Notes under the pieces: model-generated
The model's database searches: none
The model's input: only the letters and a program-made list of their open reading frames with translations
What the model was told of the DNA's origin: nothing
Source of the DNA: Acidobacteriota bacterium
GTDB lineage: Bacteria; Acidobacteriota; Terriglobia; Terriglobales; Acidobacteriaceae
Direction: 5' to 3'
NCBI GenBank assembly: GCA_003225005.1
Contig: QIAN01000205.1
Coordinates: 1-64,000 of the forward strand
DNA length: 64,000 nucleotides
Shown here: positions 17,947 through 46,451 of the stretch, piece by piece
Layout: every line of letters starts with the position of its first letter
Numbering within the stretch: the stretch's first letter is position 1
Translations under genes and position numbers: made by a program

Positions 17947-18182
17947 ATCATTCGCTCTTCCGCCGTGGCGCTGCTGGAACGGGTCTAAAAAAGGAGAAAG
18001 GAACAGGATGGCTACGGAAGAATCTTGGAGCCGATCACAGTCGTGGTGCGAACCTTGCCTTGATTGTCACGAACGCTGATGTTTTGCATAACCGGATTGC
18101 CGCCATGGGTAGACTCACCAGCGATTGGCTCATCCATTAGATGTGGCGTAAGATATCGTGTTTTGCGAGAGGCGCGATCACA

Positions 18183-24553: not shown

Positions 24554-24630
24554 ACATCTTCCAGGGTTTCGACATGTTTCTGGAGATCCAGCGGTTGCTG
24601 CGAAGAGCAACCGCTCGATCTCATGAGGGA

Positions 24631-28075: not shown

Positions 28076-28144
28076 ATTGGTTGGACTAAGTGGTTGGACC
28101 AATCCAACTGGGACTTCTTACCTCACAGTTTCCATGATTGTCAA
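28076..28144 (-). promoter_or_regulatory. promoter with tandem GntR/FadR-like operators before receptor 1
   Basis: On the minus strand a -35 TTGACA (28139-28144) and a -10-like TAAGAA (28115-28120) are 18 bases apart. Downstream of the -10 lie two copies of a palindrome: TTGGTCCAACCA (28091-28103) and TTAGTCCAACCAAT (28076-28089). They fit TTGGT-N3-ACCAA, close to the TGGT-N3-ACCA site of FadR-type regulators. The position over and after the start of transcription suits repression. The likely regulator is the GntR protein encoded at 41591. Confidence 0.7.
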
Positions 28145-28228
28145 GAGAATTTGCGTTGGACGTGGAATATCGTCCTTAACCCAAGTTCGTCACTAAGGGG
28201 CCAAAAAAAAGGGTTAAGTGCTTTGAAA

Positions 28229-28745
28229 TCAGTTCAGGCTACAACAAAGTCTGCACCTACATTTTTGAATCTGGATCGGGTCCAGTCGTTCCGGCAGCTG
28301 CAGTTGGAGCTGGTGAAAAATCCTCTGCTGGTCCTCATCCAGCTTGCTGATGCGGCGCAACCAAATTTCTTTACCTTCTACCGTGGGCAGTACGATATCC
28401 ACGCTGTGCAACTCGGATAATCGCTTTAAGGCTTTGGCCGGCGAATACTCCGAGGCACTCCGCTTCAGAAGATGCTTCAGCGTCACCAGCAGGGCGTAGC
28501 CGAGAAAGGCCACCAGCACGTGGGCTTTCACTCGCTTTTCCAGTTGATGAAACAGCGGCCGGATCGCCAGCTCACTCTTGAGCGTGCGAAATGCGGCTTC
28601 CACTTCCGTCAGCTGTATGTATTTTTTCCAAAGGTCGTTACGCACGCCTGGTGTGGCGGCAGAAGCCGGAGCAACAACAATGGCTGGAGGCGCGCGAAGG
28701 CGCGTATCTGTTACGCACAAATGCCCGCAAGGAGAATGATGGCGA
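28229..28745 (-). mobile_element. IS1634-family transposase remnant with internal inversion
   Basis: On the minus strand a frame reads LWKKYIQLTEVEAAFRTLKS, then ELAIRPLFHQLEKRVKAHVL and VAFLGYALLVTLKHLL, the C-terminal part of the DDE transposase of IS1634-type elements. The segment that should come just before it (QQWLEAREGAYLLRTNARKE) is found on the plus strand at about 28665-28730. A piece of the gene has therefore been inverted at about 28640. The first two thirds of the transposase and the terminal repeats were not found, so the element is dead. Confidence 0.8.
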
Positions 28746-28881
28746 TGTCTAAGGGTGAGGCCTGAGGCCACGGTTCAAGGCGGAGCCTGGCTTGATAAAT
28801 AAATGGTCGAACCACGTCCAGTGGCTGTCTTGCTGGCTGCAGAGTGCACCCATGTCAAGCGTTTGTTGCAATAAATCAGCG

Positions 28882-28942
28882 TTGACAGGCATCAACACCA
28901 CATCCTAGCATAGTGGTCCTCAAGGATAGTTGGTACACCCAA
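28882..28942 (+). promoter_or_regulatory. promoter and operator-like site before LamG relic 1
   Basis: TTGACA (28882-28887), an 18-base spacer and TAGCAT (28906-28911) form a good sigma70-like promoter. TTGGTACACCCAA (28930-28942) follows, one base from the TTGGT-N3-ACCAA operator pattern. The architecture repeats that in front of both TonB receptors, although the gene behind it is now broken. Confidence 0.55.
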
Positions 28943-28989
28943 TTGTGATCAGCATGGAATACTCTCAACGGGCAAGGATATTACGCATA

Positions 28990-29865
28990 ATGAGCAATTC
29001 GCATCTCCGTATGTTGAGGGCGGTATTTCCAATCTTGCTGCTGGCCGGACTGGCAGTCGGGCAGCAAAACGGTCCTGTGGCCCGGTGGGAGTTCGATCAG
29101 TCAAGCGGAGCCAAAACCAGGGACCCCATCAGCGGCGTCGAGGACAGCGTGAGTGGATCCTGCGCATATGCTCGGAGCGTGTCTGGTAGCGCGCTGTAGT
29201 TCGACGGATACACAACAGGTGTCACACGACTCGCAAAGCAGGTCCCAGCAATGGGGAGCGTACGACGCCGAACCGATGTCTGACAAACAGACGCGTTACT
29301 CACGGGTGAATATTATGGAAAGCAGTCCGCCCGCGCGCTTGTGCACTGGCGCTATGCGCTGGCCGACATTCTCTATCGTGGCGCACATCAGGACCCGCTC
29401 ACCGGGTGGTTCGGACTGGGCTGACGAGTATTACACGGTTTATCCTGACGGAGTTGCCGGAAGAAAACAAGTCTTGCACCATAGTGACCGCGTGCAGCCG
29501 CCGGACATGTGGCACGAGTGGCAGGAGACCATAATTGTGAATGGTCCGGGCACGCGCCCTGAGGATAATGTCCAGAATGACGCGCTCACTCTGGCAAACA
29601 TGTCGGGGCTTCTCCGCAACTGCCGTTGAAACTGCAAGCCTCCGACGATTCTCCAATTTTCAATCCCGCCCTCGTGGTGAAGAATTGGAATGCCGATCCG
29701 GCGCGGGTCACAGTTGATGGTCGTGCGGTGCCAGCAGGAACTGTCCGGGTCGGGACGATACGCAACCTGGACGGCATCGACCTGGCGGTCTTTGTGCAGC
29801 AGCAGACGACGAAGCCGATGGAGATTACTTTGACAGCTCCAAACTCCCGCATTCAGTCGCCGTAG
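28990..29865 (+). pseudogene. LamG/unknown-domain protein relic 1 (two internal deletions, nonsense and frameshift)
   Basis: The start keeps a signal peptide and the first LamG strands (GPVARWEFDQSSGAKTRDP). An in-frame TAG at 29197 replaces the codon before FDGYTTGVTR. About 200 residues are then missing, and another frame resumes with AEPMSDKQTRYSRVNIMES, DWADEYYTVYPDGVAGRKQ and ETIIVNGPGTRPEDNV. A second deletion joins this to the last domain strands SPIFNPALVVKNWNADPARV and NLDGIDLAVFVQ. Every block matches copy A (18183-20258) in order, so this is a decayed paralog. Confidence 0.88.
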
Positions 29866-30243
29866 GCCGATTGAGTTTCACTTTAACTGTCGGGTCGGGG
29901 GGATACTGTACCGCGGTGAAAATTCAAAGGGAGGGCAAGATAGGTGATCTTATGCGTCGTGCGGGATCCGGCGAGCTCCAGGCAGCCCCCGAAGGAAGCT
30001 CTCGAAAGGCCCTGAAGTTCGCACCGATGGCCCTCTATTAATGATGGCTCTCCGCTATTAACAAAAACGGGGTGGGGGATGGCTCGGTGAGGGCCAGTAA
30101 GCATAGAGCTCTCGCAATAGGCTGCATTTTTTCGGCCTCCGGGCCTGCGTTGGCAGGGGATTTCGAATCACCTAACAGCGTAATGCTAAGCGTTTCAGGA
30201 GCACCCTGCTTTGGGCAATGACCGAAGGTCGAGCCAGGACCGG
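29866..30243. other. intergenic, no gene seen
   Basis: The stretch between the LamG relic and the CRTAC1-like gene. No structured RNA or operator-like palindrome was noticed. An in-frame TTG at 30211 would extend the next gene by 11 residues. Confidence 0.5.
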
Positions 30244-33200
30244 ATGCCCTCGCGCCGCGAATTCTTGAGGTGGTGCAGCGGCGTACCAGCCCTCTGGCTA
30301 CCCGCAAGTTTCACCGCGGCACCTCTAGTGGTTGGCCAGGAACCAAACCCCCAACAGCAGCGCACGCTGTCCACCCCACTGGACTATCGCCTTACACCTC
30401 GATACCCCGCGGGGGCGCCGCTCGATGACGTGATGCGGAAAGTTCACTCGGAGCTGGACATCTTTCCCACGGAGAAGTACGCGGAAGAGATTGAAGCCAT
30501 TCTTGCTCGCTGGGGCGAGGCTCTACGCCAGTCTCCCCCTGATTTTGAGCCACTTGAAAGTTCACTCTCGCCCGACATAATGGCCTCTCCCGTGGTAGCC
30601 TCTGACGTCAAGGAGATCCGTTCGGGCCCCCCGCTTGAGGTTTGTCGGCTTCTGTTTCCAAGCGCTCAAAGCCTGCGTCACAACTCACTCGTCGTGCAAC
30701 TCCGCACGCTGTTGGATCCTTCAAGCCGACTTCTGGTGGCAGAATTCACGATACCCTCCCTCTCTGTGATTTCTTCGTCGCTCCTCATCGCCCAGACGCG
30801 AGTGTTTTACAACTGGGTTTTGACAGGATCGGATTTCCACCGCGAAGAGCGGCTCGGGGAATGGGCTATCAAATGGGGCCAGCAGCCCGGCGGCGAGTGG
30901 CGGGTACTGGAATGGCAAGTGCTCGGAGAACGGCGCTGCCGCATGCCGAGTGCGGCGTTTGTGGACATCACCTCGCAAGCGTTCGATAGCAACGCGTCGT
31001 ACAGCGGGCAGCTTCTCCGTGGAACCGACTACTGGCGGACGGTCCTCGACGGTGCGTCGGGCATCGACGTCTATGGAAGTGTCGGCGTCACCTGCGGGGA
31101 TATCGACAACAATGGGTTTGATGATCTCTACGTGTGCCAGCCGTCTGGGCTCCCCAACCGGCTCTACCGCAATCGGGGCGATGGGACGTTCGAGGACATC
31201 ACGGAAGCGGCTGGTGTCGGCGTGCTCGACGCTACCCCTTGCGCGCTGTTTGCTGACGTGGACAACGACGGTTATCAGGACCTCCTCGTGGTGCGAGTAA
31301 CCGGGCCTCTGCTCTTTCTCAACCAGCGAAATGGAACCTTCCGGCTCAAACCTGATGCCTTTCGGTTCGCGGACGAACCTCTAGGTACATTTACAGGCGC
31401 CGCATTCGCAGACTACGACCGCGATGGATGGCTCGATGTGTACTTTTGTCTTTACAGCTACTACCAAGGCCTCACTCAAAATCAATACCCGACGCCCTAC
31501 TACAATGCGCAAAATGGACCGCCCAATTTCCTGTTCCGCAATAACCGCGATAACACTTTCACTGACGTAACCGTTCGAACCGGTCTTGACCAGAACAACA
31601 ACCGCTACAGTTTTGATTGCCACTGGGCCGACTACGATAACGACGGCTGGCCTGACCTTTACGTCGTGAATGACTTCGGGAAGAACAACCTGTATCACAA
31701 CAACGGCGACGGAACTTTCACCGATGTAGCCGATAACGCCGGAGTTTCAGATATCGGGCCTGGGATGAGCGCGTGCTGGTTCGACTACGACAATGACGGC
31801 TGGCTCGATCTCTACATCTCTAATATGTGGGAGGCGCCAGGTCTGCGTCTCACCTCGCAGGAAGCCTTTTCCAGGCAAATGCCGCGCGACATCCTCGCGC
31901 TTTATCGCCGATTTGCCCAGGGCAATTCGCTATACCGGAACCTCAAGAATGGAAACTTCGAGGATCGCAGCGTGTCCGCAGGGACTGAGCAGAGCGGCTG
32001 GTCGTGGTCGAATCATGCCTGGGATTTCGACCATGATGGTTACCCGGACCTGTACATCGCCAACGGCCTGATCTCCGGCCCCCGTAAGCAGGACCTGGCG
32101 AGCTTCTACTGGCGTCAAGCGGTTGCGCAGTCGTACCCTACTGACCGTCCTGCAGCGTACCAGAGGGGTTGGAACGCGATCAACGAATTGACCCGTTCCG
32201 AGGGCACTTGGGGAGGTTATCAGAGAAACGTCTTTTACCTGAACAACCATGATGGGACGTTTACCTCCTGCGCGGGAGCACTGGGACTGGACTTTATCGA
32301 CGACAGCCAAGCCTTTGCCCTCGCTGACTACGACCAGGATGGGCGGCTTGAAGCCTTCCTGACGAATCGCACTGGACCACAGCTCCGGCTTCTACGCTGT
32401 GAAATGCAGAATCTCGGGTACTCTATCGCTTTTCGCCTGCGCGGCACCAAGAGCAACCGGGATGCGATCGGGGCGGTGATAAGCTTGGAAACGGAACAAG
32501 GAATTCAGACCAGGTTTCTGCAAGCGGGCACAGGGTTTTGCTCACAACATTCGAAGGAGATTTTTTTTGGACTGGGAAAAGGCGGCGTTCCGGTTCACGC
32601 GCGGATCCGCTGGCCCAATGGGCTACTTCAGGAATTTCGAGGCCTGCCGGTGAATCACCGGATCGAAATTGAAGAGGGGGCCGAGCACTTCCACGCCGAA
32701 CCCTTTCGGGCGCTTTCGGGGCGATCTTCGCTTCGTCCCAAGCCTCAGCAGAATTTGCTCTCGCCAACAACATGCGAAACCTGGTTGCTCGACCCGGTGG
32801 CTGCTCCCGACTTCGAACTGCCGGATCCCATGGGCCACAAACACACTCTCGCTGAGTTCCAAGGGCGTCGGGTTTTGTTAAGTTTCTGGGCCTTGGAAAG
32901 TCCTGCCAGCCTGAAGGTCCTGGAGACCTTCGAACGGCAGCGGGTCAGGTGGGCGGACGCCGGACTTCACTTCATCGCTGTGAACGTCGACGAGCCAATG
33001 GCGGCGGACAAGGTCCGGGCTTTCGTCCGGGAACAGGAGTTCTCGTTCATCACCGTGCTTGGTTCGGTGGACATGGCGGGTATCTACAATGTTCTTTACC
33101 GTTATATGTTCGCCCGGCGGAGGGACTTGGGAATCCCGACATCTTTCCTGATTGACGTAAAAGGGGACATTGTCAAAGTCTACCAGGGGACCCTCAGCCC

Positions 33201-34053: not shown

Positions 34054-34379
34054 CTCGTTGCTCCGCCTCGGTGATTTACCGCTCGGGACCTAGGTGCGCA
34101 TCTCTATGAAAACCTGTCCGCTGTGCGAAACCGCTTATCCTAATTAAGATCAAAAAGCCAAAGGTGCGAAACCAGGGATCCACTCCTGCTAGACTCCCCA
34201 AGCGGCTTCAAGTTTGGGAGGCGCATTGCGGTAAATAAGCTCATTCTCAAGTCTTCATGCAAGGTCTAGGTTGTCGAAAGTGCAATCTTCTCAAGGGAGC
34301 GACGCTACGTGGATCGTCGGAAATTCATAATCTCATCGGCGTGTTTTGCTGGTCTGGGACGCAGGGAATACGAACCGGC
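34054..34379. other. intergenic between convergent genes
   Basis: The stretch lies between the 3' ends of the TPR protein gene and the minus-strand amidohydrolase. An imperfect inverted repeat (CTCCCCAA near 34193 and TTTGGGAG near 34213) could form a weak stem without a T-run. Nothing else was seen. Confidence 0.45.
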
Positions 34380-35213
34380 TCAGAACCGGATGGAATAAAA
34401 CCCTATCGCGTTCTTTTCCAAGATTGCATTCCGTTCATCGCCCGAAAGCCGGGCAATGTAGTCAGTTTCTAAGTTAATCACAGAGGTATAGTCTGCCGCC
34501 AAAGTGCACACCGGCCAATCCGAGCCGATCATGAGTCGATGCGGGCCAAATGCGTTAAGTACAACATCGAGGTACGGCTCGAAATCCTGCGCTTCCCATG
34601 AACTCCACTTGGCTTCTGTTACGAGCCCCGAAATTTTGCAAGAAACATTGGCAAAACTTGCCAGTCGTTTGAGGTCACGTGCCCATGGCTCCATTTCTTT
34701 GGCTCGAACCGGAGGTTTGGCAATGTGGTCCAGCACGAAAAGTTGGTCGGGAAATCGCTTCACCACATCGCATGCAATGGGAAGATGCCGAGGGAACAGG
34801 AGCAGGTCGTAAGTGAGCCCAAATCGCTTCAGCTGGCTCAACCCATGAAGGAAACTCTCCCGTAACATAAACTTGTCATCCGCTTCATCGTGGACGACAT
34901 GTCTGACTCCGCGGAATTTCGGGTGCTGAGCAAGCTGCTCAAGTTGCTCCACAACGCGCTCGCTAGTGAGATCTACCCAGCCCACTACTGCGCGGATGAA
35001 AGAATATTCGTCCGCGAGTTGCAGAAGCCAAGTACTCTCTTCGAGAGATTGTCGAGCTTGTACTGCGACGGTAGCACTGATACCAGCGGCGTTGATAAGC
35101 AGCAACAAGTCCGTCGGCAGGTGATCCTTACGGAGCTTGTCCATGCCGGTGCCCATCCACACGTAATCTCGAACGTTATATTTCCAAAAATGCTGGTGCG
35201 TATCGATTTTCAT
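34380..35213 (-). CDS. amidohydrolase, probable L-fuconolactonase
   Basis: A 277-residue metal-dependent hydrolase of the PF04909 amidohydrolase-2 family. ATG 35213 puts the metal motif at the N-terminus as usual (MKIDTHQHFWKY). Further motifs are GWVDLTS, FRGVRHVVHDE, FVLDHIAKPP and the late LMIGSDWPVCTLAADY with the catalytic Asp. This layout is that of L-fuconolactonases and L-rhamnonolactonases, which open the lactone made when fucose is oxidised at C1. The neighbouring fucosidases and sugar dehydrogenases favour fucono-1,5-lactone. The symporter gene lies 115 bases upstream on the same strand. Confidence 0.85.
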   Translation of the reverse strand: MKIDTHQHFWKYNVRDYVWMGTGMDKLRKDHLPTDLLLLINAAGISATVAVQARQSLEESTWLLQLADEYSFIRAVVGWVDLTSERVVEQLEQLAQHPKFRGVRHVVHDEADDKFMLRESFLHGLSQLKRFGLTYDLLLFPRHLPIACDVVKRFPDQLFVLDHIAKPPVRAKEMEPWARDLKRLASFANVSCKISGLVTEAKWSSWEAQDFEPYLDVVLNAFGPHRLMIGSDWPVCTLAADYTSVINLETDYIARLSGDERNAILEKNAIGFYSIRF

Positions 35214-35328
35214 CGTAGCCACAATTCCCAACTCGGCTGGGCGGTTTGCCCTTCCGAAGAGAATCCGCGTAACGCGAAAGGTTCCCAAGTTACGTTTGTG
35301 TTTCTGAGCGAATACTCGACCTCAGGCG

Positions 35329-36963
35329 TCAGCGGAAGATGTAGTACAGAACAGCCACCGTCACTGCGAGGACCGTTGCGATTAAGCGCGGGTCTCGCAA
35401 GCCTTTAAACGGTTCCTGAGTGACAGCGGACAGGGGGTGATCCCAGGTAAAGCCATCCACCGATTCGTGCGGAGGTGCCGGCGTGAGGAGGGTGACCACA
35501 ACGTAGACGACGCTGCAAATACAAAACATCCACCAGGCCTGCATCATGAACGGAATACCCCAGCGGTGAGTAACGATCTTCTCCGTGCCGAACGCAGGGA
35601 GGTCCAGGATGAACGCGATCGCTCCCATCGCAAAGCCGCAAATCAGCGTGTAGAGGGAAGCTTGCTTGGTGCCTCGCCGCCACAGCACACCCCAGAGAAA
35701 AACGACGGTGATCGGAGGTGCCAAGTCAGCCGCGATGGCATTGATCGCTTCAAAGATGCTCGAGTATCGCCCCCCTTGGGTTGACCAAGCCATAGCCAGC
35801 AGCATGACGACAACGGAACTGATTCGGCCGATTGTCACCTGCGCGCGATCGGATGTGCCCGGTCGTAGCCGAGCCACTATGTCAACCGCCACCAGGGTTC
35901 CGATGCTGTTGAGAGCGGCTGCGACGGCGCTCATTAGGGCTGCTAAGACTGCCGCAGTGATCACCCCCCGCACTCCTGTCGGGATCAATTGCTCAATGAG
36001 CACCGGCAGCGCCTGGTTGCTCTCGCTCCCGATGATGTTATGAAACAGTACGTATGCGATGACGCCAGGCAGCACGAGCAGAAAAACAGGCAGGATCTTT
36101 AGGAATCCCGCAAAGAGGGGGCCCAATTGTGCATCTTCTGAGCTGCGCGCTCCTAACACTCTCTGAACAATCGTTTGGTCTGTGCACCAATACCAGATGC
36201 CGAGAATCGGGTAACCAAGCAGCACGGCATACCAGCTAAGACCAGCCGAGTCGTGCGAGTGCAGCATCGATAATTGTTCCGGCTTCGCAGCAGCCCTGAA
36301 CTGCCCTAAGGAATGGATACCGTGGCCGGACAATGCGGCCAGCGAGAACGCCAAAATCAATAGCGCTCCCAGTATCAGGATCACAGTATTGACAGTCTCG
36401 GTGATGACCACGGCTCGCAGCCCCCCGAGCACGGTATAAATCGCGACGACTGCGGAAATAATCACGATCGACGTGACGACGTTAATACCGAAAAAGCGGT
36501 GGAAAACGGCAGCTCCGGCGTACAAACTCATCCCAATGTGGATGAACAGGGCTGCGACAATTGCCATGAAGGCCAAGAATGAGCGCGACGCGGGACTATA
36601 CCGGCGCTCCAGAAATTCCGGTAAAGTTGCTATACGGGTTCGAAAATAGAACGGCGCAAAAACGAGCGATAGCAGGATGAGCGTGTACGATGCCATCCAT
36701 TCGAAGTTCCCCCAAACAAGACCTTCATTGTAACCAGAGGCCGTAAGTCCAACCAGGTGGATGGTCGAAATGTTGGAAGCAAACAGAGCCGCACCGACTA
36801 ATGGCCATGACAGCGATCGTCCGGCGAGAAAAAAAACGTTGCCCGTGATTTTGATCCGACGCACTGACAGCAGGCCAATGGTCAATATGCCAGACATGTA
36901 CAGCAGAATAATCGCGACGTCGAGCGCAGGGATTGTAAGGGTAGGTTGCACGGCGTAGCTCAT
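35329..36963 (-). CDS. sodium:solute symporter (SSS family), probable sugar importer
   Basis: A 544-residue protein with about 14 membrane segments, the full length of SglT-like transporters. Seen motifs are FFLAGRSLSWPLVGAALFAS, NISTIHLVGLTASGYNEG, GYPILGIWYWCTDQTIVQRV and the ALMSAVAAALNSIGTLVAVD helix with the sodium-site serines. The WCTDQ motif is typical of sodium/sugar members. In this setting it probably carries L-fucose or a related monosaccharide over the inner membrane. It is transcribed with the fuconolactonase gene. Confidence 0.92.
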   Translation of the reverse strand: MSYAVQPTLTIPALDVAIILLYMSGILTIGLLSVRRIKITGNVFFLAGRSLSWPLVGAALFASNISTIHLVGLTASGYNEGLVWGNFEWMASYTLILLSLVFAPFYFRTRIATLPEFLERRYSPASRSFLAFMAIVAALFIHIGMSLYAGAAVFHRFFGINVVTSIVIISAVVAIYTVLGGLRAVVITETVNTVILILGALLILAFSLAALSGHGIHSLGQFRAAAKPEQLSMLHSHDSAGLSWYAVLLGYPILGIWYWCTDQTIVQRVLGARSSEDAQLGPLFAGFLKILPVFLLVLPGVIAYVLFHNIIGSESNQALPVLIEQLIPTGVRGVITAAVLAALMSAVAAALNSIGTLVAVDIVARLRPGTSDRAQVTIGRISSVVVMLLAMAWSTQGGRYSSIFEAINAIAADLAPPITVVFLWGVLWRRGTKQASLYTLICGFAMGAIAFILDLPAFGTEKIVTHRWGIPFMMQAWWMFCICSVVYVVVTLLTPAPPHESVDGFTWDHPLSAVTQEPFKGLRDPRLIATVLAVTVAVLYYIFR

Positions 36964-37400
36964 TCGTAAGATCCAGTGCGAGCAGTTGATGGGTGCACGT
37001 TACCTGCTCGTTTGTGTCGTAGGAGGCATGCGATCGGTGTACGCAGTCGTTTGGTCATATGGTCTTTGCATCCGCTGAGCTATTTGACGCGAGGAGTTCG
37101 GCAGAAAACTCGCTCTACGCCTGAGATTCTGCACAAAAAAACATGCTTGCCGCTGCTCCTAAAGTCTTGTGAGCCATTGCCGCACAAATCTTGGGTCGCA
37201 CAGTGCGGTGACCAGTCCAATAGATGGCACCGCGCATCGCTTCACGGCGTTTGGATGGGCCAATACGACCGCGAACTTTACCACTCATGAATTCTGAATG
37301 TCAAGATTTCCGCATTGCGAAGATCCTACTCGGCCCTTTGAATCAGTGTTCTGCTAAGAAATCTCAAGAGTAGTCTCTGACGTGAGCCCACCAGTATGGC
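36964..37400. other. divergent intergenic region of the symporter and dehydrogenase operons
   Basis: No gene is supported. The promoter of the rightward operon lies at its end (37401). For the leftward operon no clear promoter was found. GGTCATATGGTC near 37052-37063 has two TGGTC half-sites in direct orientation and could be a weak regulator site. Confidence 0.4.
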
Positions 37401-37456
37401 TTGACCGAGGATGGATGGTGTTCTAGAATTGACCGCGGCGTATGGCTGGACCAATA
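37401..37456 (+). promoter_or_regulatory. promoter with GntR/FadR-like operator before the alcohol dehydrogenase
   Basis: TTGACC (37401-37406), a 17-base spacer and TAGAAT (37424-37429) form a near-consensus promoter. TATGGCTGGACCAATA (37441-37456) lies 11 bases after the -10 and keeps TGG-N5-CCA of the palindrome found at both receptor promoters. The dehydrogenase ATG follows at 37498. Confidence 0.6.
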
Positions 37457-37497
37457 TCGACAACTCTCCGACTAGCCGCACTTCGAGGAATCCTTTT

Positions 37498-38481
37498 ATG
37501 AGAAGAATTCGGCTGAATGCTCCGGGCGAGTTTGTCGACCTCACCGTTCCACGCCCAGTGCCTTCCAGGGGACAAGTCCTGGTTCGAGTTCATCGAGTCG
37601 GGGTTTGTGGAAGCGATTTCCATGCTCTTGCTGGAAGACACCCAATATACACCTACCCACGTGTCCTGGGACACGAGCTTGCCGGCGAAATCGTGGAAGT
37701 GCCCGAGAATAAGCGAGGACTCCGCCCGGGCGATCGATGCGCGATCGAACCGTACATCAGTTGCGGCCAATGCCGCACCTGCAAAATGGGAAGAACGAAC
37801 TGTTGCGAACAGCTTCAGCTTCTCGGTGTACATGTCGATGGCGGCATGCAGGGCTTTTTAGGGGTCCCGATTGAGCTATTGCACAAATCAGAACTGCTGT
37901 CGCTTGATCAACTCGCTCTGGTCGAGACCTTGGGAATTGGGGCTCATGCCGTAAACAGAACCCAATTGCGGGCGGGTGAAGAGGTGCTGGTGGTCGGAGC
38001 CGGCCCCATCGGACTGGCGGTGTGTCAGTTCGCCGCCGCCATCGGGGCGAAAGTGGCAGTCATAGAAACCAACGATTGGCGCAGACACTTTGCACACAAA
38101 TTGGGTGTGGAAGCCTTACCTACGCCAGATGGACGACTAGCTGACGTGGTATTGGATGCTACGGGGAGCGCGGCCGTCATGGCAGACAGTCTGAACCATG
38201 TAGCTCCTGGAGGGCGGCTTGTTTTCGTGGGCTTAACGCGTGATCCCGTACGCATTGATGACGCGCTGCTACATCGGCGCGAAATCACGATTTATGCGAG
38301 CCGGAACAGTTGCGGACAATTCCCACCTATTATCCGCATGCTTGAAGAAAATAAGATTAATACCGAGCCCTGGATTACCGATCGGATCAGCCTTGACGAA
38401 GTGCCTGCGCGCTTCAAAGAGCTCTCCGAAAAAGTTGGGATGATGAAAGCGGTCGTGGAAGTTCGAGATAGCGATGGATAG
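37498..38481 (+). CDS. zinc-dependent medium-chain alcohol/sugar dehydrogenase
   Basis: A 327-residue MDR enzyme. ATG 37498 is chosen; the in-frame extension to 37411 covers the promoter. The catalytic zinc site is GVCGSDFHALAG and LGHELAGEIVE, and the structural zinc cysteines sit in CGQCRTCKMGRTNCC. The Rossmann motif is VLVVGAGPIGLAVCQFAA. It is slightly shorter than the usual 340-350 residues but has both domains. Close relatives oxidise polyols or sugars such as L-threonine, sorbitol or 3-keto sugars. In this cluster it may act on fucose, or on a keto-deoxy acid further down the pathway. Confidence 0.88.
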   Translation: MRRIRLNAPGEFVDLTVPRPVPSRGQVLVRVHRVGVCGSDFHALAGRHPIYTYPRVLGHELAGEIVEVPENKRGLRPGDRCAIEPYISCGQCRTCKMGRTNCCEQLQLLGVHVDGGMQGFLGVPIELLHKSELLSLDQLALVETLGIGAHAVNRTQLRAGEEVLVVGAGPIGLAVCQFAAAIGAKVAVIETNDWRRHFAHKLGVEALPTPDGRLADVVLDATGSAAVMADSLNHVAPGGRLVFVGLTRDPVRIDDALLHRREITIYASRNSCGQFPPIIRMLEENKINTEPWITDRISLDEVPARFKELSEKVGMMKAVVEVRDSDG

Positions 38482-38663
38482 CAGGCAAGCCGTATTCGAG
38501 CTCCAATGTGGGCTCGCCAGTCCCCGGACGCATTAGCACGATGCTGTCCAGCGTCGAGTACCACGAAATAAAAAGCAGTGCGGTTGTGAAACAAACGCTC
38601 GACCTCATGGCGCGCTCGACTCGTCATTGTGCGCTGAATCTCGATGTCAAGGCGTGAGTTTTT

Positions 38664-39602
38664 ATGGAACGCAATATTCTTGGACGGACCGGGATGAAGG
38701 TCTCCCGGCTGAGCTTCGGAGCCTCCTCTCTTGGTGGCGTTTTCCGTTCTGTCGATGAAAAGGAAGCCATCAAGGCGGTGCATGTGGCACTGGAATGCGG
38801 GATCAACTACTTCGACGTGGCGCCCGCATATGCGGGGACAGTCTCTGAGACAGTTCTGGGAAAAGCATTACGAGGCGTCAGGCGCGACCTGTATTATCTC
38901 TCGACGAAAGTGGGCAAGTATACCAAGCCCGGCACTTACGGCGAAGACACACTCGACTACTCACTCGCTCGGATTCGCAAGTCGATTGAGGAGAGTGCTG
39001 AACGCTTGGGGACTGACTATTTCGATCTGATTCACATCCACGATATCGAATACCAGGGGCGTAAGCACACCGAGTGGGCTCTCACCGAAGGCTATGAGTC
39101 GGTGCTGGAGTTGAAACGGGTAGGGCGTATAGGCGGCGTCAGCTTCGGAATTTATCCGGTAGATCTCTGGGTGAGAATTCTCTCTTCTCTCGATGTCGAT
39201 GCCGGCCTGGTCCATAACCACTACTGCCTGAACGACACGCGAATGACAGAACTGCTGCCCATGGCCGAGGCGAAGGGAATTGGAATCATCAATGGTTCTC
39301 CATTCGCCAGTGCCTTGTTGACAGACCGTGGACCCGCGGATTGGCATCCTGCAAGTGCTCAGGATCGAGCCACTTTCAAAACCGCGGCCGACTTCTGTCG
39401 AAAGCAAGGTAGTTCCATCGCGAAGCTAGCTCTACAATTTGCCAGCCAGAACCCCAGCCTTCCTACTACTCTTTTCAGCTCCGCGAATCCCGAATCTGTG
39501 CGACGCAACGTTGAATGGCATCAAGAACCGGTTGACCTGCAACTTGTAGCAGAAGTGCAGAAGCTGTTAAGACCCGTGCGCGACAAACAGTGGGACTACT
39601 AG
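38664..39602 (+). CDS. aldo/keto reductase, probable L-fucose/L-galactose 1-dehydrogenase
   Basis: A 312-residue AKR. The catalytic tetrad is visible as Asp and Tyr in NYFDVAPAYAG, Lys in YYLSTKVGKY and His in DLIHIHDIEY. The N-terminal LGRTGMKVSRLSFGASSLGG and the IHIHD strand are typical of L-galactose dehydrogenases and bacterial D-threo-aldose (L-fucose) dehydrogenases. That activity would make L-fucono-lactone, the substrate of the lactonase at 34380. It lies 182 bases behind the alcohol dehydrogenase and is followed by a strong terminator. Confidence 0.87.
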   Translation: MERNILGRTGMKVSRLSFGASSLGGVFRSVDEKEAIKAVHVALECGINYFDVAPAYAGTVSETVLGKALRGVRRDLYYLSTKVGKYTKPGTYGEDTLDYSLARIRKSIEESAERLGTDYFDLIHIHDIEYQGRKHTEWALTEGYESVLELKRVGRIGGVSFGIYPVDLWVRILSSLDVDAGLVHNHYCLNDTRMTELLPMAEAKGIGIINGSPFASALLTDRGPADWHPASAQDRATFKTAADFCRKQGSSIAKLALQFASQNPSLPTTLFSSANPESVRRNVEWHQEPVDLQLVAEVQKLLRPVRDKQWDY

Positions 39603-39737
39603 GCGAGTTGAACGGGCTGTGGTTTGCCGGAACTGCCGAATCTGACGGCGAGTGGCGCACTCGTGGATGATCATTTCTGCGACCACTCGAAGACCTGCAG
39701 CTGCAATGTCAGACTTAGATTATTAATCGTGCATTGC

Positions 39738-39776
39738 AAAGCCGAACTTCTCGAACCTGGGAAGTTCGGCTTTTGT
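39738..39776 (+). terminator. rho-independent terminator after the aldo/keto reductase gene
   Basis: AAAGCCGAACTTC and GAAGTTCGGCTTT form a 13-base-pair perfect stem around a ten-base loop, with T residues at the end. It separates the dehydrogenase genes from the fucosidase at 39858. Because the stem is flanked by A and T runs it could also serve the other strand. Confidence 0.88.
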
Positions 39777-39857
39777 CATCGAGTGAATGACGGCTAAACG
39801 CACCGAGCCATCGAGGCCCTTCCTCAAGGCAACTATTTCCGGAGGCAGGAGGAATCA

Positions 39858-41450
39858 ATGGACGACAACACGAGAAGGTCTTTCCTAAAAAGTTTGGGGA
39901 TTGCCTCCGTTATGGCTACCAAGCGGATCCGTCATGTGTTCGCGAGCAACTCAGCCACATCGGCGTTAGCCCAAGGTTACGTTCCTCCGCGTGGAAACAT
40001 CCGGGTGCCGGAATCGGACGATCAATGGAAAGCAGTGAAAGATTACGTTGACGAACCCGGTCCGGAATACCGACATGCTTCCGAATCCGCCTTCGAGGCG
40101 TTTCGCGATATTAAATATGGCGTGCGGATCCACTGGGGGCTGTACGCACTCAAGGAGTGGTGGGACACTAGTTGGCTATTTCTGAAATTGTCGCCTGCGG
40201 AGAAGCAGGAATATCAGGAGCATTACAAAACTTGGAATCCCACAGGGTTCAACGCTGATGAATGGATGAAGTTCTTCAAAGAGAATGGGATGAAGATGTT
40301 TGCCATCACTTGCAATCATCACGAAGGCTTCTCCATGTACGACACAAAAAGGAGAGTAACGAGTCGTGTTGACTGGACGGCACCGGGGGGACCTAAACTC
40401 CAGAATTGCGACCTGGCTTACAGCATTATGGAGACGCCGTTCAAGCGAGACGTAGTAAGAGAAGTGTGCGATGCGGGTCGCAGGCAAGGGCTAAAGATCG
40501 ATCTCTATTTTTCTCATCCGAACTGGTACGATGCAGACTTTCGTCCCTTTTGCAGACATCCCTTGCTGCCGGGATCGTATGGTATTCCGGATCTTACGCA
40601 AGAAGAACAAACGCGGATGATGGCGCATCATCGTCAGCAACTTACGGAGTTGCTGACGAACTACGGCAAGATCGATATGGTGTGTCTGGACATGTGGCTG
40701 GGGAAAGAGGTGTGGCCTCAATTGCGAGAGACGATGTTGGCACTCCGTAAGCTTCAACCGGATGTAATGTTTCGCGCACGCGGCATCGGTAATTACGGTG
40801 ACTACTACACACCCGAACGCTATGTGCCTGGCGGAAAAGGAACGACGGATATACCTTGGTTCGTAATCTATCCGTTAGGCCGCGGCTTCTCTTATAGCGG
40901 GGCCGATGACCATTTCAAGGGCAGCAGGTGGGTCATCCAAAATCTCGCCGACACAGTGGCGAAGGGCGGCAATTTCATGGTCGGTATCGGTCCAGACCGC
41001 AATGGCACGTTCAGTCCCACGGCGATGAGTCAACTGGAGGAAGTCGGCCAATGGCTGAAGGTAAATGGCGAAGCGATTTACGAAACGAGGCCGCGGCCGG
41101 GTGATTTGTGGAAAGAAGGTGACGACGTTTCCCTTGCCGAATCCAGGCCCAAAAATGGCGAACAGCCTGCTGTAACCAGCGAAAATGGTCCGATTCGTTT
41201 TACTCGCCGCAAGGATGAACGAGCGCTGTACGCCATCTGTTTGCAATGGCCTGGTCCAACGCTAAGGTTGAGGACTGTCGGGGCAGCCCAAAGTACCAAG
41301 ATCACCCTGCTCGGTGTGAACCAATCATTGAAATGGCACGACGACACCTCTGGTGGAATGGTTATCGAGACTCCGAGTACACTTCAAGATGAAGCGAAAC
41401 GGCCTTGCAAAGTGGCATGGACCTTCAGAATTGAAGGCGAACAGGCTTAG
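39858..41450 (+). CDS. GH29-type alpha-L-fucosidase, divergent, TAT-exported (copy 3)
   Basis: A 530-residue protein with a twin-arginine signal (NTRRSFLKSLG) and AGGAGGAA just before ATG 39858. The barrel has KYGVRIHWGLYALKEWWDTS, MFAITCNHHEGFSMYDT, LYFSHPNWYD and the probable nucleophile Asp278 in IDMVCLDMWLG. The late motif is GGNFMVGIGPDRNGTFSP. It is clearly the most distant of the three copies; the conserved EWY after the HWG motif is replaced. It may act on a different fucosyl linkage or on another 6-deoxy sugar. The GntR regulator gene lies 140 bases downstream. Confidence 0.88.
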   Translation: MDDNTRRSFLKSLGIASVMATKRIRHVFASNSATSALAQGYVPPRGNIRVPESDDQWKAVKDYVDEPGPEYRHASESAFEAFRDIKYGVRIHWGLYALKEWWDTSWLFLKLSPAEKQEYQEHYKTWNPTGFNADEWMKFFKENGMKMFAITCNHHEGFSMYDTKRRVTSRVDWTAPGGPKLQNCDLAYSIMETPFKRDVVREVCDAGRRQGLKIDLYFSHPNWYDADFRPFCRHPLLPGSYGIPDLTQEEQTRMMAHHRQQLTELLTNYGKIDMVCLDMWLGKEVWPQLRETMLALRKLQPDVMFRARGIGNYGDYYTPERYVPGGKGTTDIPWFVIYPLGRGFSYSGADDHFKGSRWVIQNLADTVAKGGNFMVGIGPDRNGTFSPTAMSQLEEVGQWLKVNGEAIYETRPRPGDLWKEGDDVSLAESRPKNGEQPAVTSENGPIRFTRRKDERALYAICLQWPGPTLRLRTVGAAQSTKITLLGVNQSLKWHDDTSGGMVIETPSTLQDEAKRPCKVAWTFRIEGEQA

Positions 41451-41590
41451 TGCGGATCGTTCGGGAAGCTCTCTAATCAGGCGGTGCAGTAGCAGAGTTG
41501 CTGTACGAATTGTGTGAATCTCGCTAAAATGAACCCTGCTTTTGTTTTTTCCTGGAAGCACAATACGGCACCGCCTGTCGCGCACATGGC

Positions 41591-42298
41591 ATGGCATCTT
41601 CCCAACAGACCCGCCGCAAGACGCCCGCTGATACCCGGATTACGGCAAAAATACTTGAGAGGATGAAACGCCTCATCTCGACCGGGGCGGTTGTGCCGGG
41701 AGCAAAGTTTCCCCCTGAACGTGAACTGGCGAAAGAGTTTGGCGTAAACCGAGCCTCATTGCGCCAGGCCTTGAAAGTGCTTGAGATAATGGGTGTCCTG
41801 ACCCAGAGGGTGGGCGATGGGACGTACCTGAGCGCCAGCGCCGAAGCGACCCTTAAAGAGCCGCTCGATTTTCTCATCCTGTTAGATGACCTCTCCCATC
41901 ATGAGCTGTTGGAGACGCGGATGATCGTCGAACCGGAGCTCGCGGCCCGGGCAGCTCAGCGCGCCACCGCGGAGGACCTGATCGGGCTCCGAAAGGCGAT
42001 TGTCGCGATGGAGCATTGCCGGACAAACGAAGAGAGGTTGGATGCAGACCTCGCATTCCATGAATGTATTTTTCGCGCCAGCGGCAATCGAATCTGTCAT
42101 TTGTTGTTTAGAGTGATCCACCGCAACTTGCTGACCAGCATGGCCCAGTTTTCCACGCGCGTGAACCTCGATCGGCCGCTGGCTTTTCACAAGCGAATCT
42201 ATGCGGCGATTCAGGACCGAAATTCGGAAGAAGCACGGCGCCAGATGCTGGATCACATTGCCGACACCAAAGCACTCCTGACCTCGGCGACGAAGTAG
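41591..42298 (+). CDS. GntR-family (FadR/FCD-type) transcriptional regulator
   Basis: A 235-residue regulator. Residues 18-85 form the winged helix, with PGAKFPPERELAKEFGVN and RASLRQALKVLEIMGVLTQR. Residues 95-230 form the all-helical FCD ligand domain, with metal/ligand-binding Asp and His in DADLAFHECI, AFHKRIYAAI and MLDHIADT. FadR-type proteins bind TGGT-N3-ACCA-like palindromes and release them when a sugar acid or similar ligand binds. Such sites lie in front of several island genes, so this is the likely local repressor, perhaps sensing fucose, fuconate or a keto-deoxy acid. Confidence 0.9.
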   Translation: MASSQQTRRKTPADTRITAKILERMKRLISTGAVVPGAKFPPERELAKEFGVNRASLRQALKVLEIMGVLTQRVGDGTYLSASAEATLKEPLDFLILLDDLSHHELLETRMIVEPELAARAAQRATAEDLIGLRKAIVAMEHCRTNEERLDADLAFHECIFRASGNRICHLLFRVIHRNLLTSMAQFSTRVNLDRPLAFHKRIYAAIQDRNSEEARRQMLDHIADTKALLTSATK

Positions 42299-42303
42299 GA
42301 CAC

Positions 42304-42324
42304 ATTGATCCAACCAATTACGAC
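42304..42324. promoter_or_regulatory. GntR-like operator, exact copy of the receptor 2 site
   Basis: These 21 bases are the perfect reverse complement of 46431-46451 in front of TonB receptor 2; the core reads ATTGATCCAACCAAT. The site starts five bases after the gntR stop codon and 160 bases before the beta-helix gene. It could be an auxiliary operator for that gene. Confidence 0.6.
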
Positions 42325-42435
42325 GTGAGACGCTCGCACCGCTCCATTTTCATTGTCAAGCTTCTTCAGTGCCCGACAATCTGTTGCCTCTGTGTGTGCC
42401 AGTTTCTCGGCATGCACTTCTTTCCGCCCTTCTGC

Positions 42436-42478
42436 TTGACTTCCTAAATAACCGGTGTACGATTTGGTTCGTCCATTG
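42436..42478 (+). promoter_or_regulatory. promoter and operator-like site before the beta-helix gene
   Basis: TTGACT (42436-42441), a 16-base spacer and TACGAT (42458-42463) form a plausible promoter. TTGGTTCGTCCAT (42464-42476) follows at once and is a degenerate match to the TTGGT-N3-ACCAA site. The gene starts at 42486. Confidence 0.45.
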
Positions 42479-42485
42479 TGCTCCT

Positions 42486-44762
42486 ATGAAACGTCGAGAA
42501 TTCTTGAAGCTCAGTGCCACCGCTGCTCTGGCTGGTGTTTACAGCCAAGGCGAAACTCTGATCGCTGCGGGCGCGCCGGAGTTGGGCGAAGCCGCTACTT
42601 TCTATGTTTCTTCTTCCGGGAATGACAAGAGCCCTGGGACTAAGAAACTGCCCTTTGCAACCCTTCACCGCGCACAAGAGGCTGTTCGGCAATCACGGAA
42701 CAGCCCCGCTCCGGTCAGAGTGTTGGTTCGGGAAGGCACCTACTACTTGAAGAGTGCGCTGACTTTCGGTCGGGAGGATTCCGGCAGCAAGGAAGCGCCG
42801 ATGATTTATACCGCCTATCCCGGGGAGCGCGTGACAATCAGCGGCGGACGCAAGCTGACGTGCAACTGGAACCCATATAAGAACGGCATCATGATGGCCT
42901 CAGTTCCATCAGGGCTGGAGTTCACGCAGCTGTTCATCAACGGTAAACGCCAGACTCGTGCCCGGTATCCGAATTACGATCCCTCGAATCCTGGGAAGTC
43001 GGGATATGTTCAGGCGGCAGGTCCGATCCGCGCTGGTACCGTGAACCCAGATGCGGGTCTGGACGACGACATGACATTTTCCACTCAAGCCCCCAGGGGA
43101 ATACGATTCGACCCCGCCACGTTTACAAAAAAAAGGTGGGCGAATCTACAGGAGGCGGAGATCCACATTTTCCAAGCTGCTTACTGGGGAAACCTGCAAT
43201 GGAAGATCAAGGGCATCGACTTCAGCACCGATTCGATCTGGTTCGGCGATGGCGGTCAACAAATTGGCGCTAAGTGGAGCCATAATCCCGCGGTTCTTAA
43301 CGAAAGCTCACGGTTTTTTATCGACAATGTATTTGAGGAACTGGACGTGCCAGGCGAGTGGTTCCTAGACAAGCAGAAGGGCATTCTTTACTACTATCCC
43401 GAGCCGGGCACTGATTTGCGAAGGGCACTTGTGGAAGTGCCCGTTCTGGAGCAGGCGATACAGTTTACCGGTACGCAGCACGATCCTGTGGAGCACGTGT
43501 CTCTGCATGGTTTCCACATTGCGCACACCGCTACGACTTATCTGAAAGCCTATGAGGTCCCGTCGCTTAGCGACTGGGCGATTCGGCGCAGTGGCTCAGT
43601 CTTTGCCGAAGGTACCCGCAACTGCTCAATTGAGGCTTGCTGGTTTGATGCCATCGGAGGCAACGCCGTTTTCGTCAACAACTACAACCGCGAATTCTCG
43701 GTGGTTGGATGCAGATTCACAGAGACAGGCGATAGTGCGATCTGCTTTGTAGGCGACCTGGAAAAAACGAATGGTACACAGCGCGCCTTCCCTTATGAAT
43801 GCCGAGCAGCTGACAACTTGATTCATGATTGTGGTTATTACGGGAAGCAGATTGCTGGCGTTTATGTTTCCCGCGCCAAGCGAATCACGGTCAGCCACAA
43901 CCTGATATACAACATGCCCCGGGCGGCCATCTGCATCGGCGACGGTACATGGGGGGGGCACGTCATCGAATACAACCAGACTCATGACACGGTGCGCGAG
44001 ACCAGTGACCACGGTCCCTTCAACGCGTGGGGCCGGGATCGGGGTTGGGCTTTAGGCCAGTCTCACGCTCCCTACACTTCGGATCGCAGCCTCGATGTCT
44101 GGGAGGCCCTCGTCGACGCCATGGAACCTGTGATCGTTCGCAACAATTTCTTCGATGAAAAGTCGGGGTGGGGGCTCGATCTGGATGACGGTGCTACGAA
44201 CTACGAGATTTACAACAACATCTCGGTAGGTGGCGTCAGCATGAAGCTGCGCGAGGGAGCGTATCGGAAGGTCTACAACAACATCTGGTACCTTTCGAAA
44301 GGGGCCCCATGCTTTCACGTTGGAAACAACTATAACCACGATCAGTATTTTAACAACATCACAGTCATGCATCCCGGCAGCACCAAATGGCCGGATGGAT
44401 GGCCGTGGTGGCCGCAGATGGTTTACTCGATCATCGCGCCTCCGACGGTTGGACCTTGGCTCGAAAAGATCGATAACAATTGTTTCTATTGTGTTGGTGG
44501 AGAATTTCAGGCAGTGGTAGACCAGCTACGCTCGGAAGATGGTAGACGCAACGCGAAACGCTACAACCTGGAGGAATGGCAAAAGCTAGGCTTTGACCAG
44601 CACTCCATGTTTGCCGATCCACTTTTCGTCGACCCCGAAAACCACGATTTCCAAGTGCGCCCGGAATCACCAGCGCTGAAGTTGGGTTTCAAAAACTTCG
44701 AGATGGGCAAATGGGGATTGACGGACGGATTTCCTGAGCAGTGGCGAAAATCAACAAGCTAG
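42486..44762 (+). CDS. TAT-exported right-handed beta-helix glycosidase-like protein (GH141-like)
   Basis: A 758-residue protein. ATG 42486 gives a twin-arginine signal (KRREFLKLSATAALAG); the 39 upstream in-frame codons are left out. The mature part begins FYVSSSGNDKSPGTKKLPFA and has VREGTYYLKSALTFGREDSG and IYTAYPGERVTISGG, then many right-handed beta-helix turns, for example NLIHDCGYYGKQIAGVYVS and NNIWYLSKGAPCFHVGNNYN. This start pattern is known to me from GH141 (alpha-L-fucosidase or xylanase) and related pectate-lyase-like proteins. With three GH29 genes nearby, a fucosidase role is attractive but unproven. The mutarotase gene follows 18 bases later. Confidence 0.82.
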   Translation: MKRREFLKLSATAALAGVYSQGETLIAAGAPELGEAATFYVSSSGNDKSPGTKKLPFATLHRAQEAVRQSRNSPAPVRVLVREGTYYLKSALTFGREDSGSKEAPMIYTAYPGERVTISGGRKLTCNWNPYKNGIMMASVPSGLEFTQLFINGKRQTRARYPNYDPSNPGKSGYVQAAGPIRAGTVNPDAGLDDDMTFSTQAPRGIRFDPATFTKKRWANLQEAEIHIFQAAYWGNLQWKIKGIDFSTDSIWFGDGGQQIGAKWSHNPAVLNESSRFFIDNVFEELDVPGEWFLDKQKGILYYYPEPGTDLRRALVEVPVLEQAIQFTGTQHDPVEHVSLHGFHIAHTATTYLKAYEVPSLSDWAIRRSGSVFAEGTRNCSIEACWFDAIGGNAVFVNNYNREFSVVGCRFTETGDSAICFVGDLEKTNGTQRAFPYECRAADNLIHDCGYYGKQIAGVYVSRAKRITVSHNLIYNMPRAAICIGDGTWGGHVIEYNQTHDTVRETSDHGPFNAWGRDRGWALGQSHAPYTSDRSLDVWEALVDAMEPVIVRNNFFDEKSGWGLDLDDGATNYEIYNNISVGGVSMKLREGAYRKVYNNIWYLSKGAPCFHVGNNYNHDQYFNNITVMHPGSTKWPDGWPWWPQMVYSIIAPPTVGPWLEKIDNNCFYCVGGEFQAVVDQLRSEDGRRNAKRYNLEEWQKLGFDQHSMFADPLFVDPENHDFQVRPESPALKLGFKNFEMGKWGLTDGFPEQWRKSTS

Positions 44763-44780
44763 TAACTCGACGAGGAACCA

Positions 44781-45194
44781 ATGAGAAAACTCGCATTTGC
44801 AACAGTATTCGTTGCTGCTGCCTTATTGACTGTAGCGATGTTCGCCAAAACCGAGAACGCACACGTACAGCGCATCGGCATGGTAATCGGAATCAAAGCC
44901 GACCAGATCAGCGCATACGAAGCCCTGCACGCCGCATCCAACCCTGGCGTTCGCGACTTGCTGGATAAATATCACATGCATAACTTCTCCATCTACATGC
45001 GTCAACTCGACGATGGAAAGTACTACCTATTTGGGTATTACGAGTACACCGGCACAGACTTCAAAGCGGAGATGGAAAAGCTCGCGGCGGAGCCTCGCAA
45101 CCAAAAGTGGCTCTCCATAACGGGTCCGATGCAAGCTCCTCTTCCCGGGGAACAGTCCTGGGCGATGATGAAAGAGGTCTATCACAATCCCTAG
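44781..45194 (+). CDS. exported RhaM/L-rhamnose mutarotase-family protein
   Basis: A 137-residue protein. After a Sec signal (LAFATVFVAAALLTVAMFA) comes a dimeric alpha-beta-barrel domain of the RhaM family: QRIGMVIGIKADQISAYEAL, LHAA with the conserved His, HNFSIYMRQLDD, LFGYYEYTG and the late NQKWLSITGPMQ. Family members interconvert anomers of L-rhamnose and similar sugars. E. coli RhaM is about 104 residues and cytosolic; the signal peptide here would place this one in the periplasm. It probably works on sugar released by the fucosidases. It is coupled to the beta-helix gene. Confidence 0.86.
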   Translation: MRKLAFATVFVAAALLTVAMFAKTENAHVQRIGMVIGIKADQISAYEALHAASNPGVRDLLDKYHMHNFSIYMRQLDDGKYYLFGYYEYTGTDFKAEMEKLAAEPRNQKWLSITGPMQAPLPGEQSWAMMKEVYHNP

Positions 45195-45258
45195 TCGGCG
45201 AGGATTCAGCCAGCAAGCCAAAACTCAAATGGATAACGAGGATCCTGCAGAGCCATTG

Positions 45259-46175
45259 ATGGACGCATTCATGCTGCTGCGTCGGTGGGAGCTAGCTATA
45301 TTGCTTTTCATTTGCCGGTCAGGATTAGGGCAACATAACGGACTGGTGGCATACTGGCCGTTCGACGGTACGGGCGGTACAGCTGTCGTTGAAGCCAAAC
45401 GATTGTATCGCGTGGAATGCGGGTCGTGAACCCATCAAACTTGAGGCCCTGGCCTCGGACGCCGCTCACAAAAGAGAGGTTGCCTTAGATTACGTCTTTA
45501 GTCTGTTTGTTGGACGGTGTGTGGAATGCGCCCGAAATCCAAGATGCCGTGACTTTCGAGGCTTGGATAGCTCCTCAGGCCTATCCTTGGAATTGGAATG
45601 CGATCGTCGAGCAGAGGGACCGATACTTCTTTGGGTTAGACGAGACCGGGCACATCGGTTTGCGAGTTTTCATCGACGATCATTGGCGCGAGTGTGTTTC
45701 GGCCACTCAGGTGCCCTTGATGGAGTGGTCCCATATAGCCGCGACTGTCGATCCCAACTGTGGCCTTACCATCTATATCAATGGGCAGGAGGCTGGTCGT
45801 CTGAAAATCAGTGGCCGTTTCGCCCGGAGGCGCCCCTTCGAGCCGAACGAGATTGAGGATAAATTCTTCACGAAACGGCAAGCCGCGGGCGGCGCCTTCC
45901 AGATTGGCCGCAACCTCGACGAACTCCCCGCCGCCGCAACGAGGCCGATCCCAGCTTCTTATTCTTTTGACGGAATCATCGACGAACTGAAAATCTACGC
46001 CCGCGCCCTTGATGCCAGCGAGATCAAGAGATCTACGACTCTCTGCGTCCCACTTCTCCGCCTCCACTGACCTGGCGCAAGCTGCCCAGCATTCCGGATG
46101 GACAAAAGCGGTTTGGTGAGTTCTACACAAGTCTGAAGTTTTACCCGGAGTGGGACCTCGAGATGTGGGGTTGAG
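45259..46175 (+). pseudogene. LamG/unknown-domain protein relic 2 (5' part only, frameshifted)
   Basis: From ATG 45259 a signal peptide and NGLVAYWPFDGTGGTA match the intact copy at 51786. After a frameshift near 45400 and a damaged stretch, another frame continues with DAVTFEAWIAPQAYPWNWNA, RYFFGLDETGHIGLRVFIDD, SHIAATVDPNCGLTIYING and FDGIIDELKIYARALDASEI. A further shift gives RFGEFYTSLKFYPEWD, where similarity ends and a stop follows at 46173. The last 400 or so residues of the family are missing. The LamG part is much closer to copy B (51786) than to copy A. Confidence 0.9.
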
Positions 46176-46395
46176 TGATCTGCGAGCAAATGCGTTCCGC
46201 CCGTGGTGATATGAACACGGCTGTGAACCGCGCGGGCATGCGCTTGGTATTGGATGAACCATATAGCTCTAGATTTTAGGGGCAAGCTCGCCCCCCAGTC
46301 AATGCCACGATTCCAGGCTAAAATGGTGTCTCACCCTTGACAATTCCTGTCAATTAGGCTTTTTTCGGGCGTTGCTTCATCGGAAGCAAAAGTGC

Positions 46396-46451
46396 TTGAC
46401 AACAGAAATCACGCGGTGCTAGCGTCTCCTGTCGTAATTGGTTGGATCAAT
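46396..46451 (+). promoter_or_regulatory. promoter with GntR/FadR-like operator before receptor 2
   Basis: TTGACA (46396-46401) and TAGCGT (46420-46425, with an upstream TG) are 18 bases apart. AATTGGTTGGATCAATT (46436-46452) starts ten bases after the -10, at the expected start of transcription. It belongs to the same site family as those before receptor 1 and the dehydrogenase, and 21 bases (46431-46451) recur exactly, inverted, at 42304. Confidence 0.75.

Follow-up and report, generated by a model that had tools for sequence, protein, structure and literature searches.

The DNA stretch analyzed here (hereafter, the window; 64,000 nucleotides from a soil Acidobacteriota bacterium, contig QIAN01000205.1) is part of an 83-kb contig; the genome measures 7.9 Mb and belongs to a genus that takes in a Candidatus Sulfotelmatobacter genome (G005). 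It hosts a fucose island in which genes for TonB-type receptors, alpha-L-fucosidases, and sugar dehydrogenases accompany a GntR-FCD (FadR-type) regulator of 235 amino acids (41591..42298, plus strand), and in which a 15-bp near-palindrome, ATTGGT-YSR-ACCAAT, is shared among promoters. We propose that the 41591 protein is the repressor acting through this element. It passes both relevant Pfam cut-offs (FCD, 80.6 bits against 24.3; GntR, 58 bits against 27) and has the architecture of the FadR (FCD) subfamily, i.e., an N-terminal GntR winged helix followed by a C-terminal FCD domain.

An earlier note, made from the letters of the window alone, had proposed a shared operator with the core TGGT-N3-ACCA for a regulon spanning 28076-46451. 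All of the sequences that it cited are present where it placed them, and positions 42304-42324 are indeed the exact reverse complement of 46431-46451 (21 bases). The short core itself is only weakly enriched (with up to one mismatch, 29 matches in the window versus 17.7 expected, a count reached by 2 of 100 shuffles), and the question was therefore whether a longer shared element exists. To construct a symmetric matrix, 16 sites from other contigs and genomes were used, and the matrix was then applied to the window; the extended consensus, which is also seen across ortholog loci, including contig 99 of G005 (L078), occurs far above chance. The nine top-ranked window positions are 46437, 42304, 28089, 18124, 46249, 37250, 42463, 37441, and the weaker 28076, and from rank ten onward the matches are at chance level. 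More specifically, eight sites score at least 16.2, each with fewer than 0.05 expected by chance in 64 kb; the 28076 site is weak on its own (0.2 expected) but adjoins 28089, and a match at 28802 (score, 12.5; ~1.3 expected in the window) is not significant. Most of the sites listed in the earlier note are retained, whereas its site at 28930 falls to chance level and three strong sites (18124, 37250, and 46249) had been overlooked, so that the regulon sites run from 18124 to 46451.

The genes behind these sites appear to form operons. On the plus strand, the overlooked operator at 18124..18138 (score, 18.5) precedes a LamG protein gene (18183..20258, plus strand; Pfam Laminin_G_3), whose product, from the probable start at 18183, is 72% identical to its L087 homolog, and a GH29 alpha-L-fucosidase gene (20311..21972, plus strand; Pfam, 355 bits) located 52 bp behind it. 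LamG genes in L089 (14907) and, with a weaker match, L087 (12852) likewise have an operator. Two overlapping minus-strand operators stand before TonB-type receptor 1 (24631..28053, minus strand; OMP_b-brl_4, Pfam 656 bits), the probable start of which (ATG 28053) was read from the sequence: the stronger one at 28089..28103 (score, 19.2), with a -35 box TTGACA starting 41 bp upstream, and one at 28076..28090 (score, 14.1) that overlaps it by 2 bp. A GH29 alpha-L-fucosidase gene 20 bp behind receptor 1 (22985..24610, minus strand; Pfam Alpha_L_fucos, 358 bits) probably shares its operon.

Toward the center of the island, the second overlooked operator (37250..37264, minus strand; score, 17.8; -35 box TTGACA starting 40 bp upstream) is identical at 15 of 15 positions to L078:8152 and faces genes for a sodium:solute symporter (35329..36963, minus strand; Pfam SSF, 226 bits) and an amidohydrolase resembling L-fucono-1,5-lactonase (34380..35288, minus strand; NF052480, 284 bits, under the cut-off of 400). 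The equivalent operator in L078 lies roughly 30 bp from the start, and positions 36963-37264 of the window seem to hold extra intervening sequence. The operator at 37441..37455 (plus strand; score, 16.2) precedes a plus-strand run consisting of a zinc-dependent dehydrogenase (37498..38481; Pfam ADH_N/ADH_zinc_N; probable start, 37498), an aldo/keto reductase that is a possible fucose dehydrogenase (38664..39602; Pfam Aldo_ket_red, 152 bits), a GH29 alpha-L-fucosidase (39858..41450; Pfam, 201 bits), and the GntR gene itself. Further along, an operator at 42463..42477 (plus strand; score, 16.7), which lies across the expected start site and the last bases of the -10 box, belongs to a GH141-like beta-helix enzyme (42486..44762, plus strand; Pfam GH141_M, 36 bits, and Beta_helix, 26.5 bits; probable start, 42486), behind which lies a RhaM-type sugar mutarotase (44781..45194, plus strand; Pfam rhaM, 69 bits). 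The operator of TonB-type receptor 2 (46507..50001, plus strand; OMP_b-brl_4, Pfam 617 bits) is found at 46437..46451 (plus strand; score, 20.4), with a -35 box TTGACA starting 41 bp upstream. A short-chain dehydrogenase/reductase (SDR) gene behind receptor 2 (50070-50842) is frameshifted near its N terminus, and its copy on contig C71 of the same genome has an open frame and its own operator.

The gene set behind the boxes, in which the GH29 and GH141-like enzymes are candidate fucosidases, is coherent with the use of fucose polymers. On other contigs and in relatives, boxes also precede an SDR gene and a PfkB kinase gene with a lactate-racemase-like protein. As to the oxidative L-fucose pathway, a fuconolactonase-like protein (below its cut-off), the aldo/keto reductase, and the zinc dehydrogenase are present, and no dehydratase was found among the genes examined. 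A plasmid search gave no match of at least 60% identity.

Several operators are conserved with the gene that they precede. In L078, the closest ortholog locus within the genus, boxes stand before the dehydrogenase, symporter, and GH141 genes as they do in the window; an operator before the same dehydrogenase is kept in L078, L077, L087, L088, and L089, and a nearly identical one before the same GH141-like gene in L078, L087, and L085. We anchored orthologous promoters on the box and compared pairwise identity within the box with that of the 25-bp flanks. The box is 80% identical among dehydrogenase promoters (six loci), 89% in the GH141 group (five loci, including L081:975, which stands before a kinase and was assigned here on the basis of its box), 100% for the symporter (two loci), and 79% among receptors and related promoters (nine). 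The flanks are 24-35% identical; the exceptions, with 50% in the GH141 group and 60% for the symporter, are left flanks, where the promoter itself lies.

Part of this similarity could in principle reflect duplication, since some copies (42304, 46437, and the one on C71) are homologous across the whole promoter. Over a stretch of 56 bases that takes in the -35 box and the operator at 42304..42318 (minus strand; score, 20.4), 47 match the promoter of receptor 2, and the 21-base identity recorded in the earlier note is part of this longer homology between two promoters, one of them orphaned. The 42304 copy is directed, on the minus strand, into the 3' end of the GntR gene, and no gene remains for it to serve. 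In L078, the GH141 gene and a receptor gene are divergent with a box on each side, and the window retains the GH141 side together with only the promoter of the other gene; the most likely reading of the site is an orphan that a rearrangement left behind. A general explanation by common descent of duplicated promoters, with no operator function, nevertheless seems to us extremely improbable, as the sites are kept amid near-random flanks, in the promoters of unrelated genes, and across orthologs of 49-62% identity.

A second orphan operator (46249..46263, minus strand; score, 17.9), divergent from that of receptor 2, has 41 bp of homology with the L081:975 promoter and now faces a LamG relic. 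We considered whether it might serve a kinase/lactate-racemase-like operon as on C71; those genes have no match in the window, and only the LamG relic lies there. The truncated LamG gene relics span 28930-29841 and 45256-46168, the second with an internal inverted segment (45404-45532). The site that the earlier note had assigned to relic 1 corresponds to a weak match (28929..28943, plus strand; score, 9.6, with ~6 expected by chance) just before the relic, whose matches begin at 28930-28972; it is probably a decayed operator, and as a site it lacks statistical support. Between receptor 1 and this relic, positions 28560-28640 resemble a sequence of contig C111 (near L082:3770), perhaps a transposase relic.

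The boxes also occupy a consistent position. In most of 22 promoters, the box starts 38-44 bp (most commonly 40-41) past the point where a TTGAC(N) -35 box begins, and hence lies roughly between +1 and +20, which is a classical position of a repressor site. Some GntR-family regulators are activators, and the 41591 protein might activate, or both activate and repress. With the operator at or downstream of the expected start in most promoters, and overlapping the -10 box at its end in the GH141 promoter, contact between an activator and the polymerase would be difficult, and we regard such a role as unlikely. A composite search with a fixed gap of 34 bases missed most of the window promoters, the gap being 35 in several; with a variable gap, six matches were obtained in the own genome, four of them within the island or its C71 copy, and G005 gave two, both on its ortholog contig. 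We also considered looping between paired divergent operators, as eight center spacings (159-191 bp) looked close to whole helical turns, but this idea was dropped because the spacings of other pairs (121 and 228 bp) depart from the pattern and several of the pairs are homologous.

What links the box to the 41591 protein is its distribution among genomes. Orthologs of the regulator were found at 66-93% identity in six records and at 49-62% in 19 further genomes of the class, and the loci of the latter were kept out of matrix training. These 19 loci contain 15 sites scoring at least 16.5; among 200 column-permuted matrices the mean was 0.55, and not one of them attained 15. Around 28 paralogous GntR-FCD genes (27-39% identity), no site of at least 16.5 occurs out to a distance of 1.5 kb. 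In addition, the GntR gene is divergent from the dehydrogenase gene in L077, L087, L088, and L089, with the operator between them, and within the genus the island dehydrogenase is confined to the two genomes carrying the GntR ortholog. Collectively, these observations tie the box to this GntR clade, a linkage that, like the box, its conservation, and its promoter geometry, is a computed result. The boxes might instead be the target of another FCD-type GntR protein of the same genome, such as an LldR- or PdhR-like regulator of central metabolism, with the 41591 protein a mere neighbor. The box is of the general PdhR/LldR type, and eight other GntR-family matches, all more distant, exist in the genome; its clustering beside 41591 orthologs in many genomes and its absence near the 28 distant paralogs make this very unlikely in our judgment.

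Several points weigh against assigning the regulon to the 41591 protein in this way. Since matrix training took in orthologous promoters, 37250, 37441, and 42463 are footprints and not independent discoveries. The symporter operator lies ~290 bp from the symporter ATG, and about half of the 19 distant ortholog loci are without a strong site in the stretch examined. Raw ATTGGTNNNACCAAT counts per genome, taken across 45 genus members, fail to separate genomes with and without the GntR ortholog, the background being too high. Immediately in front of the GntR gene, the window has no strong site (the best match from 41300 to 41600 scores 5.6), and its own control would therefore run through the upstream operon. 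Finally, paralogs on contigs C45 and C141 have the same recognition helix and could act on the same boxes.

The presence of two such close paralogs means that the regulon may be shared. On this reading, the three proteins (of the window, C45, and C141) govern one genome-wide regulon, redundantly or as heterodimers, which would extend our main explanation and not replace it. Identity among the paralogs is 82-90%, their recognition region is the same, and C141 and C71 carry the same boxes; C45, for its part, is a 3.8-kb contig that could stem from strain variation within the bin. We see the chances of a shared regulon as evenly balanced. Partial copies of the fucose island occur on contigs C45 (L076), C141 (L077), C71 (L081), and C124 (L175) of this genome (G000); they include the two GntR paralogs (90% and 82%) and, on C124, a dehydrogenase fragment with stops, and could represent either genuine duplications or strain variants within the bin.

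Other loci show related arrangements. At L223, L229, L230, L231, L221, and L232, GntR orthologs of ~50% identity have OMP_b-brl_4 receptors and other hydrolases (GH127, acetyl xylan esterase) as immediate or near neighbors, and several of these loci carry the same box at the receptor promoter. In two related genomes, the GntR coding region itself contains a perfect box, ATTGGTTCATCCAAT (L225:9616 and L228:9655), and a second copy 512-513 bp off lies close to where the next gene begins. A Planomicrobium GntR-FCD gene (37% identity; L096, position 9846) has a perfect ATTGGTCCAACCAAT 155 bp upstream of the coding match.

The box is of a known kind. Operators of the FadR subfamily are palindromic, with TKGT/ACMA boxes and typically 3 nucleotides between GT and AC (PMC4494728), a spacing that ATTGGT-YSR-ACCAAT fits. 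It equals the PdhR box of E. coli, AATTGGTnnnACCAATT (PMC7660256); the top window sites are 1-2 bases off (A)ATTGGTnnnACCAAT(T), and the others 3. The 41591 protein resembles pyruvate-sensing PdhR in its operator consensus (ATTGGTnnnACCAAT; PMC7660256) and domain architecture, and a PDB sequence search yields PdhR chains, whereas the window targets are fucose uptake and hydrolysis genes rather than those of pyruvate metabolism, and the 3-nucleotide center prefers YSR. The predicted regulators AraR2, GguR, and UxuR likewise form local GntR regulons for oxidative catabolism of sugars and sugar acids, proposed by the same comparative reasoning; they lie outside Acidobacteriota, and no TonB receptors with this box appear in the part of that work consulted (PMC5507952). 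The nearest NCBIfam models are LldR (117 bits; cut-off, 311) and PdhR (107 bits; cut-off, 330), both of which the protein misses. Lactate-sensing LldR, the best model, has the same half-site spacing of 3 nucleotides, but the protein falls below its equivalog cut-off and no lactate-utilization genes were seen beside it. FucR of E. coli and Campylobacter jejuni is, by name, also a regulator of L-fucose use. To our knowledge, these FucR proteins are not GntR-FCD proteins, and their operators differ.

With regard to the signal, the FCD residues D153, H157, H200, and H222, which we take to be the metal ligands of the domain, are invariant in 11 aligned proteins. FCD proteins with this conserved Asp/His set commonly bind carboxylic acids, for which reason we infer that the ligand is a sugar acid; gene content and these residues point to a fucose-derived acid as the probable inducer. 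We consider it highly probable that the 41591 protein is the local repressor of a fucose-polymer utilization regulon and is released by such an acid. At least six transcription units (LamG-GH29, receptor 1-GH29, symporter-lactonase, dehydrogenase-reductase-GH29-GntR, GH141-mutarotase, and receptor 2) would be under its control: a dimer would bind the box, located at the start of transcription or immediately beyond it, and would block RNA polymerase until an acid intermediate of L-fucose oxidation, held in the FCD domain, released it. Direct binding and repression are suggested by operator conservation and position. The local regulon described in the earlier note, which joined the 41591 protein to receptors, dehydrogenases, and hydrolases through one operator, is well supported by comparative genomics, with the corrections given above: the scan of genomes with an ortholog was positive in the independent 19, and the regulon is larger than had been proposed.

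This regulon is of a familiar kind and apparently undescribed in this group. A literature search found no paper joining TonB-type polysaccharide receptors of Acidobacteriota with GntR regulators and fucosidases, and the control of such receptors in this phylum seems poorly known. In the wider clade, about half of whose loci are without a strong site, the regulator often neighbors a TonB-type receptor and other hydrolases, which suggests a regulator-receptor theme broader than the fucose island. The entire clade of FCD-type GntR repressors in the class may provide dedicated one-component control of OMP_b-brl_4 receptors, the regulator being encoded close to such a receptor and the box standing in front of or between the two, across loci with differing hydrolases (fucosidases, GH127, acetyl xylan esterase), a proposal to which we give an even chance. 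If true, outer-membrane polysaccharide uptake would be switched by cytoplasmic sugar-acid sensing and not by sigma/anti-sigma or hybrid two-component systems. With the regulator, box, and geometry defined, the substrates of uncharacterized receptors may become predictable from the pathway genes that share the box. Moreover, reuse of the PdhR box by a separate clade would offer a clean case of FCD regulators changing their ligand while the operator is kept.

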